Shown here one piece after another: positions 3,912 through 25,167 of a stretch of DNA of 53,173 bases. The stretch is taken from assembly GCA_003220155.1 (NCBI GenBank), contig QHRO01000023.1, positions 1-53,173 of the forward strand, written 5' to 3'. Numbering within the stretch: the stretch's first letter is position 1; every line of letters begins with the position of its first letter. Both the position numbers and the translations under genes were made by a program. This DNA comes from Verrucomicrobiota bacterium (GTDB lineage Bacteria > Verrucomicrobiota > Verrucomicrobiia > Chthoniobacterales > UBA10450). The notes beneath the pieces are model-generated. The model saw only the letters and a list, made by a program, of their open reading frames with translations, searched no databases and was not told where the DNA came from.

Positions 3912-5150
3912 ATGTCCGACGCAACCGTCTACTTCGTTGCGGGCGAGCGCAGCGGTGACAATCATGGCGCGGCCTTACTCAAGGCTTTGCGGGCACGTGC
4001 GCCGGAAATGCGATTTGTGGGACGCGGCGGGCCGAAAATGCGCGCGGTCGCCGGCGGAAAGTTTCGTGATTGGATCGATTACACCGCTGTCGTCGGATTA
4101 TGGGAAGTGATCAGGCGTTACCCTTTTTTTCGAAAGCAATTTCAGGCCACCATTTCCGAGATTGATGCTGCGCGGCCAAGCGCAGTCATGCTGATCGATT
4201 ACCCGGGATTTAATTTGCGCCTCGCCCGTGCGCTGCGCGCGAAATTTCCAGAGTTGAAAATTATTTATTACATCAGCCCGCAAGTTTGGGCGTGGAACCG
4301 GCGTCGCGTTTCGCAGATGGCCCAGTCGATTGATTTGATGCTCTGTATTTTCCCATTCGAACCCGAGCTCTATGAGACATCGTGCTTACGCGCGATTTTT
4401 GTAGGCCACCCGATGATGTCAGTCATCCCGAGCCCCTCTTCCATCATCGCGAGCGAAAACGCCAGTCCGTCTCGAACCGAGGGATCCCGTGACGAAATCT
4501 CAAAGCCAACTTCAACAGGCCTCATCACTGCAAGCCGGACTGACGTTTCCGCACGGGATGAAAACCTTGTCGGTTTATTTCCGGGCAGTCGCGAGCGCGA
4601 GGTGAAGAAGATTTTCCCGATCATGCGCAAAGCAGCGGTGGAATTGTCGCATCAAGATCACGATCTGCGTTTCGTCGTTTCAGCTGCGTCCGAGCCATTG
4701 GGCGAATTGATCCGCGCCAATCTTTACGGCAAGCACGCCACGGGAAAGTTTTCCATCGTTACGGGCGACGCTCGTTCTGTAATGGCCCGCGTGAATGTTG
4801 GGATGGTCGCTTCCGGCACGGCCACGCTCGAAGCCGCACTTTTGCAATTGCCTTTCGTCCTGATTTACCGGGTGGCGTGGCTTACTTATTTGGCTGCGCG
4901 CCTGGTTGTGAAAGTAAAGTATTTGGGAATGCCAAACGTGCTCGCCAATCGCGAGATTGTTCCCGAGTTTATTCAGCACAAAGCAGAACCGCGCGCGATC
5001 GCCGCGGCGGTGGCGCGTTTGCTCGCCGACAAAACGGAACGCGGCCGCATGCTCGCCGATTTTGCAAATGTAGCCCAGAAACTCGGGCGGGGTGAGGCGA
5101 GTGCGAATGCGGCCGAGGCAATCGTGACCGAATTGCGCCACGCAGGATGA
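3912..5150 (+). CDS. lpxB: Lipid-A-disaccharide synthase
   Basis: LpxB (412 aa, GT19) joins UDP-2,3-diacylglucosamine with lipid X to form the tetra-acyl disaccharide at the inner membrane. It has the family start FVAGERSGDNHGA (8-20), the YYISPQVWAWNRRRV segment (119-133), VGHP (164-167), and LFPGSREREV (222-231). Between VGHP and LFPGSR lies an extra low-complexity stretch of about 43 residues (roughly 171-213), rich in Ser, Thr, Pro and Arg. Its DNA resembles the intergenic palindromes of this genome (see the separate entry). The stop overlaps kynB by 4 bp. The rest of the protein looks intact, so function is probably kept. Confidence 0.92.
   Translation: MSDATVYFVAGERSGDNHGAALLKALRARAPEMRFVGRGGPKMRAVAGGKFRDWIDYTAVVGLWEVIRRYPFFRKQFQATISEIDAARPSAVMLIDYPGFNLRLARALRAKFPELKIIYYISPQVWAWNRRRVSQMAQSIDLMLCIFPFEPELYETSCLRAIFVGHPMMSVIPSPSSIIASENASPSRTEGSRDEISKPTSTGLITASRTDVSARDENLVGLFPGSREREVKKIFPIMRKAAVELSHQDHDLRFVVSAASEPLGELIRANLYGKHATGKFSIVTGDARSVMARVNVGMVASGTATLEAALLQLPFVLIYRVAWLTYLAARLVVKVKYLGMPNVLANREIVPEFIQHKAEPRAIAAAVARLLADKTERGRMLADFANVAQKLGRGEASANAAEAIVTELRHAG
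4422..4550. repeat. Repeat-derived in-frame insertion inside lpxB
   Basis: The segment opens with GTCATCCCGAGC and contains CGAGGGATCCC, the two ends of the palindromic repeat common between genes here. Bases 4460-4488 are the reverse complement of a core (GGATCCCTCG, then CGAG, then CGGACTGGCG) also found at 22105-22132 in the squalene synthase gene. A second, inverted copy of the GGACTG(G/A)CG part lies at about 4531-4553, which makes the insert itself imperfectly palindromic. The encoded residues 171-213 have no counterpart in the LpxB family as I know it. Confidence 0.6.
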
Positions 5151-7324: not shown

Positions 7325-7840
7325 TTGGTGGAGTTTCCGAAAGCCGAGCTCGAAACTTTGTGGGCGCCCTGGCGCTTTGAGTACTTCGAGAAATCGGGCC
7401 CGCCCGATTTCCTGTCCGAGGCTGCGCGTGCCAGCGATGATGCCGCTCACCTCGTCCTCGTGCGCCGGAAAAATTCGTTTCTGATAATGAACCGCTATCC
7501 CTACACCGTCGGGCACTTGATGGCGGTGCCATATCGAAAGGTGGGCGAGCTGCGCGATCTCGGTGAAAATGAAGTCGTCGAGCTTTTTTCGCTCGTTGTG
7601 CGTGCTCAGGAGCTTTTGCGGCAGGTCACGAAAGCGCAGGGATTCAACATCGGTATCAACGTCGGCGAATGTGCAGGAGCGGGCGTGCCCGATCACCTGC
7701 ACATACACATTGTGCCGCGCTGGAGTGGAGACACTAATTTTATGCCGATGCTTTCCGGAACGCGTGTACTCTCACAAGGATTGAACGATCTCTACCAAAA
7801 GTTGAAGGCGGCGCAGACGGCGTTGGATGAAGCGAGATGA
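7325..7840 (+). CDS. HIT-family nucleotide hydrolase/phosphorylase
   Basis: A histidine-triad protein of about 171 aa with HLHIHIV at residues 124-130, preceded by GFNIGINVGECAGAGVPDH. Its N-terminus (TLWAPWRFEYF) resembles the Ap4A-phosphorylase-like branch of the HIT family. Its substrate is probably a dinucleoside polyphosphate or nucleotide conjugate. The frame opens at TTG 7325, and GTG 7328 is an equally good start; no clear Shine-Dalgarno sequence favours either. The stop overlaps the next gene by 4 bp. Confidence 0.85.
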   Translation: MVEFPKAELETLWAPWRFEYFEKSGPPDFLSEAARASDDAAHLVLVRRKNSFLIMNRYPYTVGHLMAVPYRKVGELRDLGENEVVELFSLVVRAQELLRQVTKAQGFNIGINVGECAGAGVPDHLHIHIVPRWSGDTNFMPMLSGTRVLSQGLNDLYQKLKAAQTALDEAR

Positions 7841-8556
7841 ACACCTGGATCGAAGGTCCGCCGCCGCGAGAGAAGCGTGGGATGGGATGTGTGGGCAAAG
7901 GTTGTTTGATTCTGGCTTGCTTCATCGTGTTTCTAATTATCGCCGGCGCAATCGGCTTGTATTTTGGAATGCGCACGCATTCCGCGGTGCTGCGCAGTGT
8001 TGTCTGGGCCAAGAAGACGCACGTTCTGTCTCAGGAACCTTCACCGGTGCCGCAGTTCGAAACCACCGACGAAAATATGAGCGCGGCAAGACAGAAATGG
8101 AAGGATTTTGAAAATACTCGCAATCAGCCTGCGCATATCGAACCGAGCGCCGACGACCGTACTCGCAATGAGCCTGCGCATATCGAACTGAGCGCCGACG
8201 ACCTAAACAATCTTATCGCAAGAAATAGACACGCTCGGGACAAGGCTTTCGTCACGATCGAGGGGAATCGTTTACGTATTCAAATCAGCGTTCCATTGGG
8301 CGAATACACCAGGCGCGGCCGCTATTATTTGAATGGTGACATCGTGATCACGAGCGAGGGGCCGCAATCGTTGGACAATCTGCGCCTGAGCGGCATCACC
8401 ATCAACAACGAGACCCTGCCTTCAGACGTACTCGATTGGAAATATCGTGCCCGCCCGCTGCGAGATTATCTCGGCGAATACGGTGCCACTTACGGGGACG
8501 GCACAATCGAGATTCGCGACAGCAAGGTGATCATCTACCGACGTGGCAGCGAATGA
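7837..8556 (+). CDS. Membrane-anchored hypothetical protein
   Basis: A 239-residue protein of unrecognised family. A short basic N-terminus leads into one transmembrane helix (about 24-44, GCLILACFIVFLIIAGAIGL), and the rest is likely extracytoplasmic. Two adjacent 15-residue units (TRNxPAHIExSADD) at about 94-122 result from a DNA duplication, and the second leads into a conserved-looking DLNNLIAR segment. The C-terminal half is rich in beta-strand-like sequence. It starts inside the HIT gene stop (ATGA), so the two are probably co-translated. Confidence 0.7.
   Translation: MNTWIEGPPPREKRGMGCVGKGCLILACFIVFLIIAGAIGLYFGMRTHSAVLRSVVWAKKTHVLSQEPSPVPQFETTDENMSAARQKWKDFENTRNQPAHIEPSADDRTRNEPAHIELSADDLNNLIARNRHARDKAFVTIEGNRLRIQISVPLGEYTRRGRYYLNGDIVITSEGPQSLDNLRLSGITINNETLPSDVLDWKYRARPLRDYLGEYGATYGDGTIEIRDSKVIIYRRGSE
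8116..8205 (+). repeat. 45-bp tandem duplication inside a coding gene
   Basis: Bases 8116-8160 and 8161-8205 are near-identical direct repeats; differences include C/G at 8125/8170 and C/T at 8144/8189, with divergence at the last bases. The unit is 15 codons, so the frame is kept. It starts ACTCGCAAT and ends near GCCGACGACC. Confidence 0.92.
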
Positions 8557-13551: not shown

Positions 13552-13614
13552 TTCACTCGATTTCTTTTGGCAGTCGCCTTTGCTAAAATATTTTTCGAGC
13601 CTGACGTATTTCAT
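13552..13614 (-). pseudogene. Glycosyltransferase C-terminal tail remnant, divergent copy
   Basis: Right after the first methyltransferase stop (TGATG junction) the minus strand encodes MKYVRLEKYFSKGDCQKKSS. This matches the last residues (IWLEKYFSRGDYKKTSEPSE) of the glycosyltransferase ending at 15001, with several differences. It is a more diverged third copy of that tail. The reading frame runs on to about 13465 without further similarity. Confidence 0.6.
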
Positions 13615-14288
13615 CAAGATGATTGTTTGCGAGCGACAAGAAGGAATTGTTCGCCGAAAAGCCGCCAAAGGAAAGGAAGCTTCAGGTAAATCGCGATTAA
13701 GAACCTAGGAAAGCGTGGCCCCGTGGCCATGGTATAGGGCAAGAATTGTGCAACTGCCTGCTCGATAGTAAATCCGGTCGCGCGTAGCCCTTCGGACAAT
13801 GATTTTTCCGTCAACGGAAGTGAGTGGTCCCAAAAGTCCCAATATCTTCCCGGTAAGCATTTGATGTTCGGCCCCAATGCGATAAGGCAGCCGCCTTCAC
13901 GCAGACAGCGATGGGCTTCGTGGAGAGTTCGGTTGAGCGATTCCTTATCGGGCAAGTGCTCAAAAAAGTTACTGGTAAAAACAACATCAAGATCTTGGTC
14001 GGGCAGGTTCCAACGAGTCGAGCAGTCTTGTTCGAGGAGGGTTACCGACTTGTCCAGGTATTGTTTGGTGGAAGGATTCAGGTCCATCGCCCATTTGCAG
14101 CGGGAACGAATATGATTAATGAATTGCCCGTAACCACAACCAAGATCAAGAACATTACCATCTTCGGGAACCAAGCGTTGCCAAAACTCCGAGCATAAAG
14201 TCGCCCATACTTGGTCGCGATATTCCAAGCGCTCGCCGAAACGATTCTGATAAAGTGACTGTAGTTGGGCTTTATTCGCTGGGTTCAC
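13614..14288 (-). CDS. Class I SAM-dependent methyltransferase, copy A
   Basis: A 224-residue class I methyltransferase with motif I VLDLGCGYGQF (46-56), acidic AMDLNP after strand 2, and DLDVVFTSNFFEHL (motif IV region). The likely substrate is a lipid-linked sugar or nucleotide-sugar product of the neighbouring glycosyltransferase; this is context only. The start is GTG at 14288. Its translation is identical to copy B. The start overlaps the glycosyltransferase-tail remnant by 17 bp, just as copy B overlaps the intact glycosyltransferase. Whether this copy is expressed is unclear, because the gene that would deliver ribosomes to it is only a remnant. Confidence 0.85.
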   Translation of the reverse strand: MNPANKAQLQSLYQNRFGERLEYRDQVWATLCSEFWQRLVPEDGNVLDLGCGYGQFINHIRSRCKWAMDLNPSTKQYLDKSVTLLEQDCSTRWNLPDQDLDVVFTSNFFEHLPDKESLNRTLHEAHRCLREGGCLIALGPNIKCLPGRYWDFWDHSLPLTEKSLSEGLRATGFTIEQAVAQFLPYTMATGPRFPRFLIAIYLKLPFLWRLFGEQFLLVARKQSS

Positions 14289-14343
14289 TTGTTTTCTTGT
14301 AGTCGCCGCGACTAAAGTATTTTTCGAGCCAAATGTATTTCAT
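14272..14343 (-). pseudogene. Glycosyltransferase C-terminal tail remnant between the copies
   Basis: A 23-codon frame from ATG 14343 reads MKY followed by IWLEKYFSRGDYKKTSEPSE and then TAA. All but the first three codons equal the C-terminus of the glycosyltransferase ending at 15001. Its start shares a base with the stop of methyltransferase copy B (TGATG). Two nucleotide differences from the parent are synonymous. Confidence 0.75.
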
Positions 14344-15017
14344 CAAGATGATTGTTTGCGAGCGACAAGAAGGAATTGTTCGCCGAAAAGCCGCCAAAGG
14401 AAAGGAAGCTTCAGGTAAATCGCGATTAAGAACCTAGGAAAGCGTGGCCCCGTGGCCATGGTATAGGGCAAGAATTGTGCAACTGCCTGCTCGATAGTAA
14501 ATCCGGTCGCGCGTAGCCCTTCGGACAATGATTTTTCCGTCAACGGAAGTGAGTGGTCCCAAAAGTCCCAATATCTTCCCGGTAAGCATTTGATGTTCGG
14601 CCCCAATGCGATAAGGCAGCCGCCTTCACGCAGACAGCGATGGGCTTCGTGGAGAGTTCGGTTGAGCGATTCCTTATCGGGCAAGTGCTCAAAAAAGTTA
14701 CTGGTAAAAACAACATCAAGATCTTGGTCGGGCAGGTTCCAACGAGTCGAGCAGTCTTGTTCGAGGAGGGTTACCGACTTGTCCAGGTATTGTTTGGTGG
14801 AAGGATTCAGGTCCATCGCCCATTTGCAGCGGGAACGAATATGATTAATGAATTGCCCGTAACCACAACCAAGATCAAGAACATTACCATCTTCGGGAAC
14901 CAAGCGTTGCCAAAACTCCGAGCATAAAGTCGCCCATACTTGGTCGCGATATTCCAAGCGCTCGCCGAAACGATTCTGATAAAGTGACTGTAGTTGGGCT
15001 TTATTCGCTGGGTTCAC
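14343..15017 (-). CDS. Class I SAM-dependent methyltransferase, copy B
   Basis: This is the same 224-residue protein as copy A, with motif I VLDLGCGYGQF and FTSNFFEHLPD. This copy directly follows the intact family 2 glycosyltransferase: its GTG start at 15017 lies 17 bp inside that gene, so translation is probably coupled. With the epimerase and glycosyltransferase it forms a three-gene minus-strand operon, likely for modifying a surface or lipid-linked sugar. Confidence 0.87.
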   Translation of the reverse strand: MNPANKAQLQSLYQNRFGERLEYRDQVWATLCSEFWQRLVPEDGNVLDLGCGYGQFINHIRSRCKWAMDLNPSTKQYLDKSVTLLEQDCSTRWNLPDQDLDVVFTSNFFEHLPDKESLNRTLHEAHRCLREGGCLIALGPNIKCLPGRYWDFWDHSLPLTEKSLSEGLRATGFTIEQAVAQFLPYTMATGPRFPRFLIAIYLKLPFLWRLFGEQFLLVARKQSS

Positions 15018-15780
15018 TTGTTTTCTTGTAGTCGCCTCGGCTAAAGTATTTTTCGAGCCAAATATAAAGGCAAATGAAAAGGTAACGGCTGCCCATTTCT
15101 TTGATCTTGAGCTTGGCGGTGCCGGTTCGGCGATTGCGCCAGATAATTGGAATCACCGTCCAGGTATAACCGCGCACGATCGCTTTTAGCGGGATTTCGA
15201 CGGTCAAATTGAAATGCGGCGAGAGGAATGGACGGCAGCCATCAATGACTTGCCGCCGATAGGCCTTAAAGGCATTCGTAATGTCGTTAGGTTTGATGCG
15301 AAAAAGGGCGCGAATGAATAAATTAGCGCAGCGATTGATCCAAAGTTTGAGCCAGGGATAATCAATGGCACCACCACCTTTGGCAAAGCGACTGCCGAAT
15401 ACACAGTCATAACCGGAGTTAAGGACCTGCCAGTAACGCACCACGTCACGGCAATCGTCCGATTCATCAGCCATCATGATGACGAGAGCGTCGCCTTTGG
15501 CATGGTCGAAGCCGAGGACGACGGCGCGGCCGAATCCATGCGCTTCCAAATTTTGAAGTGGGCGCAAGGTTTCTACCCGTTTCTGCGTTTCCTGTAAAAC
15601 CTCCCAGGTTTTGTCGGTGCTGCCGTCGTCAATAACAATAATTTCATGAGGAACGTTGTTGAGACGTAACTCGACGTGCAGATGTTCCACCGTCGCGGCG
15701 ATGCATCCGGCTTCATCGCGCGCTGGAATAACAACGCTAAGGAGCTGGAGGGGCGGTTGCTCTCGTAGCGGGTCAGTCAT
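15001..15780 (-). CDS. Family 2 glycosyltransferase (polyprenyl-phosphate sugar synthase-like)
   Basis: A 259-residue GT-A enzyme of the dolichol-phosphate mannose synthase type. LSVVIPARDEAGCI lies near residue 14, EIIVIDDGSTDKTWEVL carries the first Asp pair, and VIMMADESDD is the metal-binding site. The WRNRRTGTAKLKIKEMGSRY tail is typical of the group. No long membrane tail is present beyond the LFICLYIWLEKYF segment. The ATG at 15780 overlaps the epimerase stop by 4 bp, and its own 3' end overlaps methyltransferase copy B. It probably charges a polyprenyl phosphate or transfers a sugar to a lipid carrier. Confidence 0.88.
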   Translation of the reverse strand: MTDPLREQPPLQLLSVVIPARDEAGCIAATVEHLHVELRLNNVPHEIIVIDDGSTDKTWEVLQETQKRVETLRPLQNLEAHGFGRAVVLGFDHAKGDALVIMMADESDDCRDVVRYWQVLNSGYDCVFGSRFAKGGGAIDYPWLKLWINRCANLFIRALFRIKPNDITNAFKAYRRQVIDGCRPFLSPHFNLTVEIPLKAIVRGYTWTVIPIIWRNRRTGTAKLKIKEMGSRYLFICLYIWLEKYFSRGDYKKTSEPSE

Positions 15781-21856: not shown

Positions 21857-22894
21857 GTGAACGAGCTCGAATTGCTGAAACCGGTTTCGCGTTCGTTTTA
21901 TATTTCGATTCGCTTACTGCCACGTGCGCTGCGGGAACCAGTCGCCCTGGCCTATTTGCTGGCGCGAACGAGCGACACCATTGCCGATAGCAGTACCGTT
22001 GCTGTTGAAAAACGAATCGAATTGCTGGATCGCTTCGCGGCGGGAATTGCCGGGAAAGATGAAGCGATCGGAAGGGAACTAGGGGAGGTGCTCGCTTCGC
22101 CGCAGGATCCCTCGATCCGAGCCGGACTGGCGGATTCCGCCTCCGCTGGGCTACGGTATGACGAGTCGCCCGGGATGACGGAAGGGGAAAAGACGTTGCT
22201 GGAATCGGCGGAGGCGGTTTTGCGAGCGCTGGAAAATCTTTCACCGGAAGATCAGCGCGATGTTCGCGAATTGCTCGCGATCATCACGCGTGGTCAGCGA
22301 CAGGATTTGACACGATGGCGTGGAGGACTGACGGCGGTGGCCAATGCGGACGAATTGCGGGACTACACTTATTTGGTTGCCGGTTGCGTGGGCGAATTTT
22401 GGACGCGCATTTGTTTCCGCAAAGTGCAGAGTTTCACGGCACGGGACGAAGCGGACATGCTCGAGCTGGGAAGGGATTATGGCCGGGGGTTGCAGTTAGT
22501 AAATATTTTGCGCGATGCGGGAAGCGATTTGCGCGCTGGTCGCTGTTACTTTCCGGAGGACGAATTGCGTGCTGCTAACCTTTCGGCGTCCGATCTACTG
22601 AACGCACCGGCTGACTTTCTGTCAATTTATCTGCGCTGGGTGGCGGAAGCGCGCGCTGGTTTGGACGCGGGGCTGGAATATTCCATTGCGATCAATCCGC
22701 CGCGAGTGCGCGTAGCGACGGTTCTGCCGGCAATGATCGGAGTACGGACGCTCTCGCTGATCGAGGAAAGCGGATTGGAAGCTGTGCGTACGCGGGTGAA
22801 AGTTCCGCGCAGTGCAGTGCGCGGCATGATCGCGTCGACCACGATCACGCTTGCAAGTCAAAGCCGGTTGCGACGGGCGCGGGCAAAACTGTAG
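21857..22894 (+). CDS. Squalene/phytoene synthase family protein
   Basis: A head-to-head prenyl synthase of 345 residues. Both Asp-rich motifs are present: DTIAD at 40-44 and RDAGSD at 219-224, followed by RAGRCYFPEDEL. The N-terminal SRSFYISIRLLPRALREP is typical. It would condense two farnesyl (or geranylgeranyl) diphosphates to squalene or phytoene; which one cannot be told. Start GTG 21857 is inferred, with TTG 21851 possible, because upstream codons run antisense through hemW. Residues of about 83-108 form an extra Ser/Ala/Gly-rich loop derived from repeat DNA (see separate entry). Hopanoid or carotenoid genes are not adjacent. Confidence 0.85.
   Translation: MNELELLKPVSRSFYISIRLLPRALREPVALAYLLARTSDTIADSSTVAVEKRIELLDRFAAGIAGKDEAIGRELGEVLASPQDPSIRAGLADSASAGLRYDESPGMTEGEKTLLESAEAVLRALENLSPEDQRDVRELLAIITRGQRQDLTRWRGGLTAVANADELRDYTYLVAGCVGEFWTRICFRKVQSFTARDEADMLELGRDYGRGLQLVNILRDAGSDLRAGRCYFPEDELRAANLSASDLLNAPADFLSIYLRWVAEARAGLDAGLEYSIAINPPRVRVATVLPAMIGVRTLSLIEESGLEAVRTRVKVPRSAVRGMIASTTITLASQSRLRRARAKL
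22103..22180. repeat. Repeat-derived in-frame insertion inside the squalene synthase gene
   Basis: The segment begins with GGATCCCTCG and ends with CGGGATGAC, the two ends of the intergenic repeat that reads GGATCCCTCGACTTCGCTCG plus GGATGAC at 25140-25167. Bases 22105-22132 match the reverse complement of 4460-4488 in lpxB at all but a few positions. The encoded residues (PSIRAGLADSASAGLRYDES) fall between two conserved helices and have no family counterpart that I know. Confidence 0.6.
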
Positions 22895-23187
22895 CAGCGA
22901 CGTGGCATTCGGATTGTCGAATTAACGCTTCAGCCCTGGCTCGACAGAGTCTCGCCCTGCCAATTCACGGCGACGATTGTTGGTTGGGCGACGCTCCGCG
23001 GGGCCACAAAAGCGGGGTCCCTAACCCCAAAAGCGTTCGGAGCTCGGGACGGTACGAATGACAAGGAAAACGGTTCGCGAAACGTGTTGGCGAGTTCTAG
23101 CCGCCGTCGTTGGCCGCGGCTATCATCTGATCACAGATTCGATCGATTTTCGGCGGTCATAGACCGCGGCTACAGAAGAAGCCAAGC
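22895..23187. other. Convergent intergenic region with two repeat families
   Basis: These 293 bp between two convergent genes contain no coding sequence. At 22986-23012 lies GGGCGACGCTCCGCGGGGCC, a second copy of the element at 10850-10876. At about 23098-23175 lies a palindromic unit with GGCCGCGGCTA and CGGCGGTCATAGACCGCGGC followed by TACAG, related to 25044-25107 and to the insertion in queA. Confidence 0.65.
23098..23175. repeat. CCGCGGCTACAG repeat, copy 1
   Basis: CTAGCCGCCG, GGCCGCGGCTA and CGGCGGTCATAGACCGCGGC-TACAG form an imperfect palindrome. The same GACCGCCG/CGCTACAG words occur at 25044-25107 and at 24439-24498 within queA. Confidence 0.65.
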
Positions 23188-23994: not shown

Positions 23995-25023
23995 GTGAGC
24001 AGGCGGCTAAATGATTACAATTACGAACTGCCGCGCGAATTGATTGCGCAACATCCACTGCCGCGCCGGGAGGATTCGCGCATGATGGTGTTACATCGCG
24101 AACGGAAGAAAATCGAACATGCGCATTTTGTTGATCTCAGAAAATTCCTGCGCCATGACGATCTACTCGTTTTGAATAACTCGCGCGTTCTCCCGGCGCG
24201 TCATTTTTCCGACGACGGAAAATTCGAGTTTTTATTTCTGGAAAAGGTTGCGCCTTGTCGTTGGAAAGCGTTGGTAAAGCCGAACCGCAAATTTGGAAAA
24301 GGCGCAGCCGCCTTTATTCAAGGAGTGCACGCGGAACCGGGCGACATTTTTGCCAATGGCTCACGGGAAATCGTGATGTCTGACGACATCGATCTTCAGC
24401 ACGGCGGTGCGATGCCTCTGCCGCCATATATCAAGCGATCGGCGGTGATCCGCCTTCGCGCAGCTACGGCGCGACAGGTAGACCGCCGCTACAGGGCCGA
24501 AGATGAAGCGCGCTATCAAACGGTGTTCGCGAAATACGAGGGCTCACTGGCGGCGCCAACGGCCGGACTGCATTTCACGCCGCAAATTCTGGGCACTCTT
24601 CCGCACGTTTTCATCACCCTCCATGTCGGGACGGCAACTTTTCGTCCGGTCAAAGTGGAAGACATCACTCAACATCAAATGCATCCAGAGCGATTTTCGA
24701 TCTCTCCGGATGCAGCCGAGGCCATCGCGAAAGCAAAGCGCATCGTCGCGGTCGGAACAACAACCGTTCGGGTCTTGGAATCGGTTCAGCGCAGCCTTGG
24801 AGGAATTCAAGCGAGCGAAGGCGAGACGAATATTTTTATTTATCCGCCATTCAAGTTTCGAGTGGTCGATGTTTTACTGACGAATTTTCACCTGCCGCGG
24901 TCGACCCTGCTCATGCTGGTAAGCGCATTTGCCGGGCGCGAATTTATTCTGCGCGCTTATGAAGAAGCGGTGCGGGAGCGGTATCGATTTTTCAGCTACG
25001 GCGATTGCATGCTGATTTTGTAG
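23995..25023 (+). CDS. queA: S-adenosylmethionine:tRNA ribosyltransferase-isomerase
   Basis: QueA (342 aa) adds the cyclopentene ring of queuosine to tRNA, using SAM as ribosyl donor. Family landmarks are LPRELIAQHPLPRREDSRMM (12-31), NNSRVLPARH, MPLPPYIKR (140-148), LAAPTAGLHFT and VGTTTVRVLES. Start GTG 23995 matches the family N-terminus DYNYELP. Between PPYIKR and DEARYQTVF sit 20 extra residues (149-168), rich in Arg and Ala and encoded by repeat-like DNA. All visible motifs are otherwise intact. Confidence 0.95.
   Translation: MSRRLNDYNYELPRELIAQHPLPRREDSRMMVLHRERKKIEHAHFVDLRKFLRHDDLLVLNNSRVLPARHFSDDGKFEFLFLEKVAPCRWKALVKPNRKFGKGAAAFIQGVHAEPGDIFANGSREIVMSDDIDLQHGGAMPLPPYIKRSAVIRLRAATARQVDRRYRAEDEARYQTVFAKYEGSLAAPTAGLHFTPQILGTLPHVFITLHVGTATFRPVKVEDITQHQMHPERFSISPDAAEAIAKAKRIVAVGTTTVRVLESVQRSLGGIQASEGETNIFIYPPFKFRVVDVLLTNFHLPRSTLLMLVSAFAGREFILRAYEEAVRERYRFFSYGDCMLIL
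24439..24498. repeat. Repeat-derived in-frame insertion inside queA
   Basis: About 60 bp (20 codons) contain the perfect hairpin GGCGG-TGAT-CCGCC (24441-24454), AGCTACGGCGCGACAG, and GACCGCCGCTACAG at 24481-24494. Those last words match the repeat units at 23161-23174 (GACCGCGGCTACAG with one change before it) and 25094-25106 (GCGCCGCTACAG). The encoded residues are absent from QueA proteins as I know them. Confidence 0.55.
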
Positions 25024-25043: not shown

Positions 25044-25167
25044 TATAGCGGCGTCTATGACCGCCGGGCGCATGAAAAATTTCGGCGCTTTTAGAGCGCC
25101 GCTACAGACAGAGCCCAGAAATCTTAAAGCTAGCTCATCGGGATCCCTCGACTTCGCTCGGGATGAC
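25044..25167. repeat. Two intergenic repeats: CCGCTACAG unit and half-palindrome
   Basis: Bases 25044-25107 read TATAGCGGCGTCTATGACCG, then a middle, then CGGCGC-TTTTAGA-GCGCCGCTACAG, which can fold into a hairpin. Bases 25140-25167 are GGGATCCCTCGACTTCGCTC followed by GGGATGAC, one arm of the element seen whole at 28182 and 31036. They fill the gap between queA and the thioesterase gene. Confidence 0.7.

Follow-up and report, generated by a model that had tools for sequence, protein, structure and literature searches.

Where do the extra codons in the queA gene of this verrucomicrobial soil bacterium come from, and why have they been retained? The window, that is the whole stretch of 53,173 nucleotides that was analysed, contains a queA gene (23995..25023, plus strand) for a 342-aa S-adenosylmethionine:tRNA ribosyltransferase-isomerase (Pfam PF02547 Queuosine_synth, E 3.6e-114), the product of which aligned end to end with the solved QueA structures 1vky, 1yy3 and 1wdi. 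Between PPYIKR and DEARYQTVF, positions 24439-24498 code for SAVIRLRAATARQVDRRYRA; this position is length-variable among QueA proteins and forms a short, variable link in the solved structures. The preliminary description of this DNA had reported GGCGG-TGAT-CCGCC and GACCGCCGCTACAG within the insert, and both are indeed present. It had also taken about nine residues to be typical of QueA at this site. Our alignment of ~110 QueA proteins, including outgroups and congeners, does not agree with this: from PPYxxR to the ARYQTVF block, nearly all of the verrucomicrobial outgroups have a bare link of ~4–5 residues, as against ~10 in close congeners. Our best explanation, to which as a whole we assign a probability of about 90%, is that a GTAG-tagged REP landed in this length-variable region and was retained there because it kept the reading frame and contained no stop codons, the sequences indicating that the insert is a composite of two repeats gained in two steps.

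Searched against its own genome, the queA insert matched eight other places (best match 93% over 54 nt, E 1.5e-16). About 850 kb of the genome was sampled as stretches around REP sites, and coding counts given here are valid for this sample only. The insert had six matches in the sample versus none in the reversed sequence, and control stretches had no matches in it. With genome-wide matches found, the repeat origin proposed in the preliminary description holds. The proposed size of 20 codons does not, the net gain over the outgroups being 16 codons, of which six are common to the congeners and ten are seen only in the window genome. The similar words that had been pointed out on either side of queA (~23098-23175 and 25044-25107) proved to be GTAG REPs of the same kind as the insert. 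The upstream intergenic REP (23151..23173, minus strand; one mismatch to the consensus) is half of an inverted pair beginning near 23098, and an intergenic inverted REP pair (REPIN) lies immediately downstream of queA at 25044..25107, with no strand assigned.

REPs are non-autonomous palindromes, and RAYT (Y1/HUH) transposases are believed to copy them in single-stranded form. The REP in question has the structure GTAG-CGGCGGTC-tat-GACCGCCG with an 8-bp stem, and its hairpin gave folding z-scores of -4.5 to -5. Its consensus GTAGCGGCGGTCTATGACCGCCG occurs at 90 sites in the window genome (<=3 mismatches; 52 plus, 38 minus), and at none in the reversed control; allowing <=2 mismatches, it was found in 57 of the 61 family genomes. 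Inverted pairs occur, with 26 plus-then-minus arrangements within 80 nt among 100 REP profile hits in the 850-kb sample. The window genome has ten Y1_Tnp matches, and a free-standing RAYT of 162 aa with an MPDHLH motif (L192, 9727-10212, contig C351) has an inverted REP on either side, which makes it a candidate for the cognate transposase of these REPs. The repeat has the features of GTAG REPs that were examined, namely the GTAG tag beside a short GC-rich palindrome (20-40 nt), a high copy number, inverted pairs and a REP-flanked RAYT. The uninterrupted palindrome is present in the ancestral copy, as seen in relatives. In the queA copy of the window there are 30 extra nt in the loop, for which reason we file this copy as a REP-derived composite variant and not as a simple REP.

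The relatives are near enough for the order of events to be read. Two congeners placed deeper in the genus (G048 and G016) have a queA without REP. Six other congeners have only a short form with six extra residues, e.g. SAVVDRRYRA, encoded by GGCGGTCrTAGACCGCCGCTACAG, which on the other strand reads CTGTAG-CGGCGGTC-tay-GACCGCC, a GTAG-tagged palindrome; the copy in one of them (L093) is identical to the genome-wide consensus. Both arms of this REP can be recognized at the same spot in the window allele. The distal arm of the ancestral REP (CGGCGGTGA, 24440..24448, minus strand) is assigned from the unbroken REP of the congeners and is parted from the other arm by the 30-nt insert. The proximal arm with the GTAG head (24479..24494, minus strand; plus strand TAGACCGCCGCTACAG, with CTAC at 24489-24492) matches the consensus. 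As a first event, a simple REP of ~25 nt (net +18 nt) would therefore have entered queA in an ancestor common to most of the genus, presumably through the action of a RAYT. At the level of sequence comparison, the identity of the repeat, its history in two steps, its retention in frame and the existence of a free RAYT gene flanked by REPs are established.

The second step concerns the 30-nt segment TCCGCCTTCGCGCAGCTACGGCGCGACAGG (24449..24478, plus strand; +10 codons), which lies exactly between both REP arms and was absent from queA of all congeners examined. It is itself a repeat: the unit gave a profile match (E 2.2e-7), has stand-alone copies in the window genome (two on contig C241, one each on C329 and C61), and found no match in the reversed control. 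REP and 30-nt unit joined at the same junction occur at 20 sites in 9 of the 61 genomes, five of them in the window genome including queA; thus, the composite is found in 8 of the 60 other family genomes. In the lineage of the window allele, an independent 30-nt palindromic repeat would have joined the loop of the REP, giving a composite that also occurs dispersed. The length of the unit, 30 nt, preserved the reading frame of queA. The nearest genome (G056) has the short form of queA. Its identity to the window is 98–99% over most of the length and ~90% in queA, and this local divergence means that one of the two queA alleles was exchanged by recombination, so that the second step is not datable from this pair. 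Of the 137 windows of 300 bp in the comparison, 25 were below 94% identity. Genes with insert differences may always lie in tracts of divergence, but with three genes concerned this is no more than a hint.

How the 30 nt entered queA is a sub-question on which the best explanation allows two answers, direct entry of the unit, or gene conversion in which a composite REP from elsewhere overwrote the simple REP of queA through the shared arms. The window genome has composite copies with this junction, and repeat inserts turn over at fixed sites elsewhere in the genus, both of which favor gene conversion. However, the arms in common have lengths of just ~9 and 16 nt, and queA has a left arm reading GGTGAT, a mismatch to the GGTCAT of the other composites. 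We regard conversion as quite conceivable, if somewhat short of an even chance.

An artificial join of repeat sequence into queA during assembly would also give a long form, and such a form is known from one metagenome-assembled genome, which consists of 354 contigs and has dispersed repeats. Yet the queA frame is intact, the DNA on both sides is collinear with relatives, and the short REP occupies the same place in several independently assembled genomes. We consider such an artefact the least probable of the explanations, and highly improbable in itself.

The queA insert is one of several. In-frame REPs were also found in metH and, as REPINs, in dnaE, uvrA and ileS of the window genome, and comparison with solved structures placed the insert sites in DnaE, UvrA and IleS between conserved blocks. 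REP units inside genes are a minority (~9 of 100 units in the 850-kb sample); an ORF of unclear identity (L148), for which the coding call by codon usage is doubtful, was left out of the coding counts. The REP has three naturally open readings, and all are used in genes. The SAVIDRRY-type reading is used in queA as well as in a small ORF (in L189), and the VAAVYDRR-type and GGHRPPLQ-type readings are used by the two REPIN halves in dnaE and uvrA, and in metH. One REP unit in ileS is even read in a normally closed frame. A bias of coding copies to a single frame and orientation, which the preliminary description had suggested looking for, was accordingly rejected.

These readings also bear on the idea that selection has kept the insert as an extension of QueA, for instance as a loop that binds tRNA or a partner, with its likeness to repeats being secondary. 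The short form stays open in several species, as would be expected of such an extension. Against this, it is the DNA, and not the peptide alone, that matches intergenic repeats at exact unit boundaries, and unrelated proteins use this repeat in other reading frames. In an AlphaFold model of QueA (mean pLDDT 80), the conserved core was well modelled and the insert was the stretch of lowest confidence, with values below 50 at residues 151-162 and nowhere else, which is consistent with a passive loop. We therefore hold a selected extension to be very unlikely. Most likely, the queA insert is tolerated selfish DNA that is read as a peptide linker, and its presence would be neutral for the enzyme.

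The statement of the preliminary description that more than one repeat family enters genes was found to be correct, as the lpxB insert (window 4419-4583) belongs to another family than that of queA. In the 850-kb sample, the lpxB insert had 39 matches and an insert in the squalene/phytoene synthase gene (window 22097-22186) had 22, with none for either in the reversed sequence; both in-frame inserts belong to one shared second family, about TCATCCCGAGCGAAAACGCCAGTCCGGCTCGGACCGAGGGATCCCG. Different inserts also occur at one site. A loop in DnaE (L282-L291), between PPDVNRSGLKF and AIRFGLAA, is empty in G016. It holds a GTAG REPIN in the window genome and in G056; G023, G003 and G037 have different palindromic pairs there, and G051 and G054 a palindrome of the TGGGAGRGGCC type. 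What these genomes have in common at DnaE is the loop and not the sequence of the insert. Some further stretches were noted in passing. The obgE gene (window about 39763) contains an in-frame palindrome, TGTAGGGCAAGCGCGTCGCTTGCC, for which the 850-kb sample has two weak matches at other places; it possibly represents another GTAG-tagged family. A stretch in mutL had only weak repeat matches in this sample. QueA of G003 (L130) has a different extra stretch of seven residues, PSRTGGY, near residue 57, and the uracil-DNA glycosylase encoded next to queA in that genome has PAASVEANAS; both are possibly further repeat inserts.

RAYTs are usually treated as separate genes. In the window genome (G000), three of the ten Y1_Tnp matches fall inside long open frames, namely those for CarB (1346 aa; G000:C182:15078-19115), RecG (942 aa; G000:C261:37-2826) and MetH (1613 aa; G000:C300:1373-6214). 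The host names CarB and RecG were given by eye from conserved sequence, and MetH by comparison with solved structures. Each insert consists of a RAYT of ~170 aa or more plus repeat-coded linkers; in recG, reading by eye found these components only. The CarB RAYT is present in six genomes of the genus (G000, G030, G054, G023, G003 and G043) with an intact HUH motif, MPNHVH. In G051 this site is occupied by a RAYT of another type, and CarB of G016 (1108 aa) is without RAYT. The MetH RAYT is present in G000, G030 and G037 and absent from G023, G003, G048 and G043. In the window genome it has lost the first HUH histidine, and MetH there also bears a REP and another repeat-like stretch (GSAGCQPAGAGSLPATSASRQ). 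The RecG RAYT (L124/L241, L242-L247, L271-L275) was found in seven genomes of the genus and is absent from G016 and G048. Beyond the genus it recurs at the identical loop, between RTGARQE..PLF and PHIIVGTHALL, in five more genomes: G006 and G011 belong to two further genera of the family, G154 and G164 to two further families of the order, and G169 to a different order of the class. This distribution is patchy, with empty relatives interspersed. The motif MP[ND]HVH is kept in all RecG and CarB copies read. Several of the assemblies with a RecG RAYT have just 10-30 contigs, so that assembly error is not a general explanation. Other Y1_Tnp matches in open frames of ~800-1500 codons were seen at G033:C52:6469, G033:C25:57360, G040:C50:3509, G024:C72:3087, G026:C20:128305, G012:C180:11218 and G016:C96:9400.

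Within insert types, pairwise dN/dS of the embedded RAYTs was ~0.12-0.25, and that of the hosts 0.03-0.11. The embedded RAYTs are thus under constraint, in which host folding and transposase function are not separable. For the RecG pairs L242/L246 and L241/L246, dS was 0.24-0.32 in the host and 2 or more in the insert, which simple vertical descent does not explain. The trees differ as well. The RecG inserts of G000, G056, G051 and G003 group against those of G030, G023, G037 and G006, the last from another genus. In the host tree, G030 and G003 pair up and the remaining five congeners form a group, and support for these forks is strong. This conflict shows that inserts were replaced or exchanged at the same site; allelic recombination, conversion by way of the flanking repeats and homing driven by the RAYT itself are all possible. 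HUH nucleases act on single-stranded hairpins. Unlike inteins, RAYTs are not known to splice. Patchy occupation of the same site in a host gene, in frame and by an endonuclease-type element, as for the RAYTs of recG, carB and metH, is otherwise known from inteins and in-frame homing insertions such as ShiLan (PMC11855218). It is a speculative proposal, and on balance a doubtful one, that RAYTs in this class live partly like inteins: they would hold fixed permissive loops of recG, carB and metH in frame, with a nuclease active while fused to the host, and would repeatedly re-occupy these loops or replace one another in different species, perhaps through the action of their own single-strand nuclease. 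The small REP inserts, such as that of queA and the changing ones of dnaE, would then be the non-autonomous end of this way of life.

GTAG and CGTC REPs inside genes, many of these for replication and repair, were described by Di Nocera et al. 2013 (PMC3733652), who found intragenic GTAG REPs to be most numerous in the verrucomicrobium Opitutus terrae and to recur in DNA repair genes, replication genes and tRNA synthetases. The insert described here shares with these the GTAG-tagged palindrome, the occurrence as singles and inverted dimers and the position in frame in genes, and it belongs to this published kind. Their main text is without queA and, unlike here, without a nested second repeat, a per-site history across close relatives or whole RAYT genes inside host genes (PMC3733652); what is added here in detail is the 30-nt repeat nested in the REP and the two-step history that could be resolved. 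Rickettsia palindromic elements (RPEs) are likewise selfish palindromes read in frame in many unrelated proteins (PMC10969869, PMC3733652), as is the dispersed palindrome of queA, dnaE, uvrA, ileS and metH. However, the short, REP-equivalent RPEs are CGTC-tagged and have no dedicated transposase, whereas the repeat studied here has a GTAG tag and a REP-flanked RAYT; RPE-1 is longer, and the RPE host is obligately intracellular. The queA repeat works like an RPE but, having no CGTC tag, is not filed as one. Inverted REP pairs and a RAYT flanked by the same REPs are also typical of the REPIN/RAYT systems (PMC3116915), in which REPINs were described from extragenic space and RAYTs as separate genes; here, both are also found within the reading frames of housekeeping genes. 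In a phylogenomic analysis of HuH proteins, REPs were noted that lie in frame within tnpAREP genes, and proteins of unusual length were put aside as fusions or annotation errors (PMC6006769). Our searches of the open-access literature gave no description of RAYT genes that sit in frame at conserved sites of housekeeping genes. The in-frame transposases at fixed loops of such genes are more surprising than the queA insert itself. Mobile palindromes and transposases are thus tolerated inside housekeeping proteins, from six codons up to a transposase of ~170 aa, and for annotators 10-20 extra residues or a Y1_Tnp domain inside such a protein can be real. With the RAYTs of recG, carB and metH, it can now be tested whether a host enzyme can carry a transposase as a lasting passenger domain, and whether these loops serve as landing sites.

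Two other features of the window are duplications. A 45-bp tandem duplication (8115-8203) adds 15 codons to the ORF at 7837-8556 and is absent from the relatives compared. A longer tandem duplication with a period of 729 bp (13565-15059) contains two identical ORFs of 224 aa (13614-14288 and 14343-15017), which look like methyltransferases.
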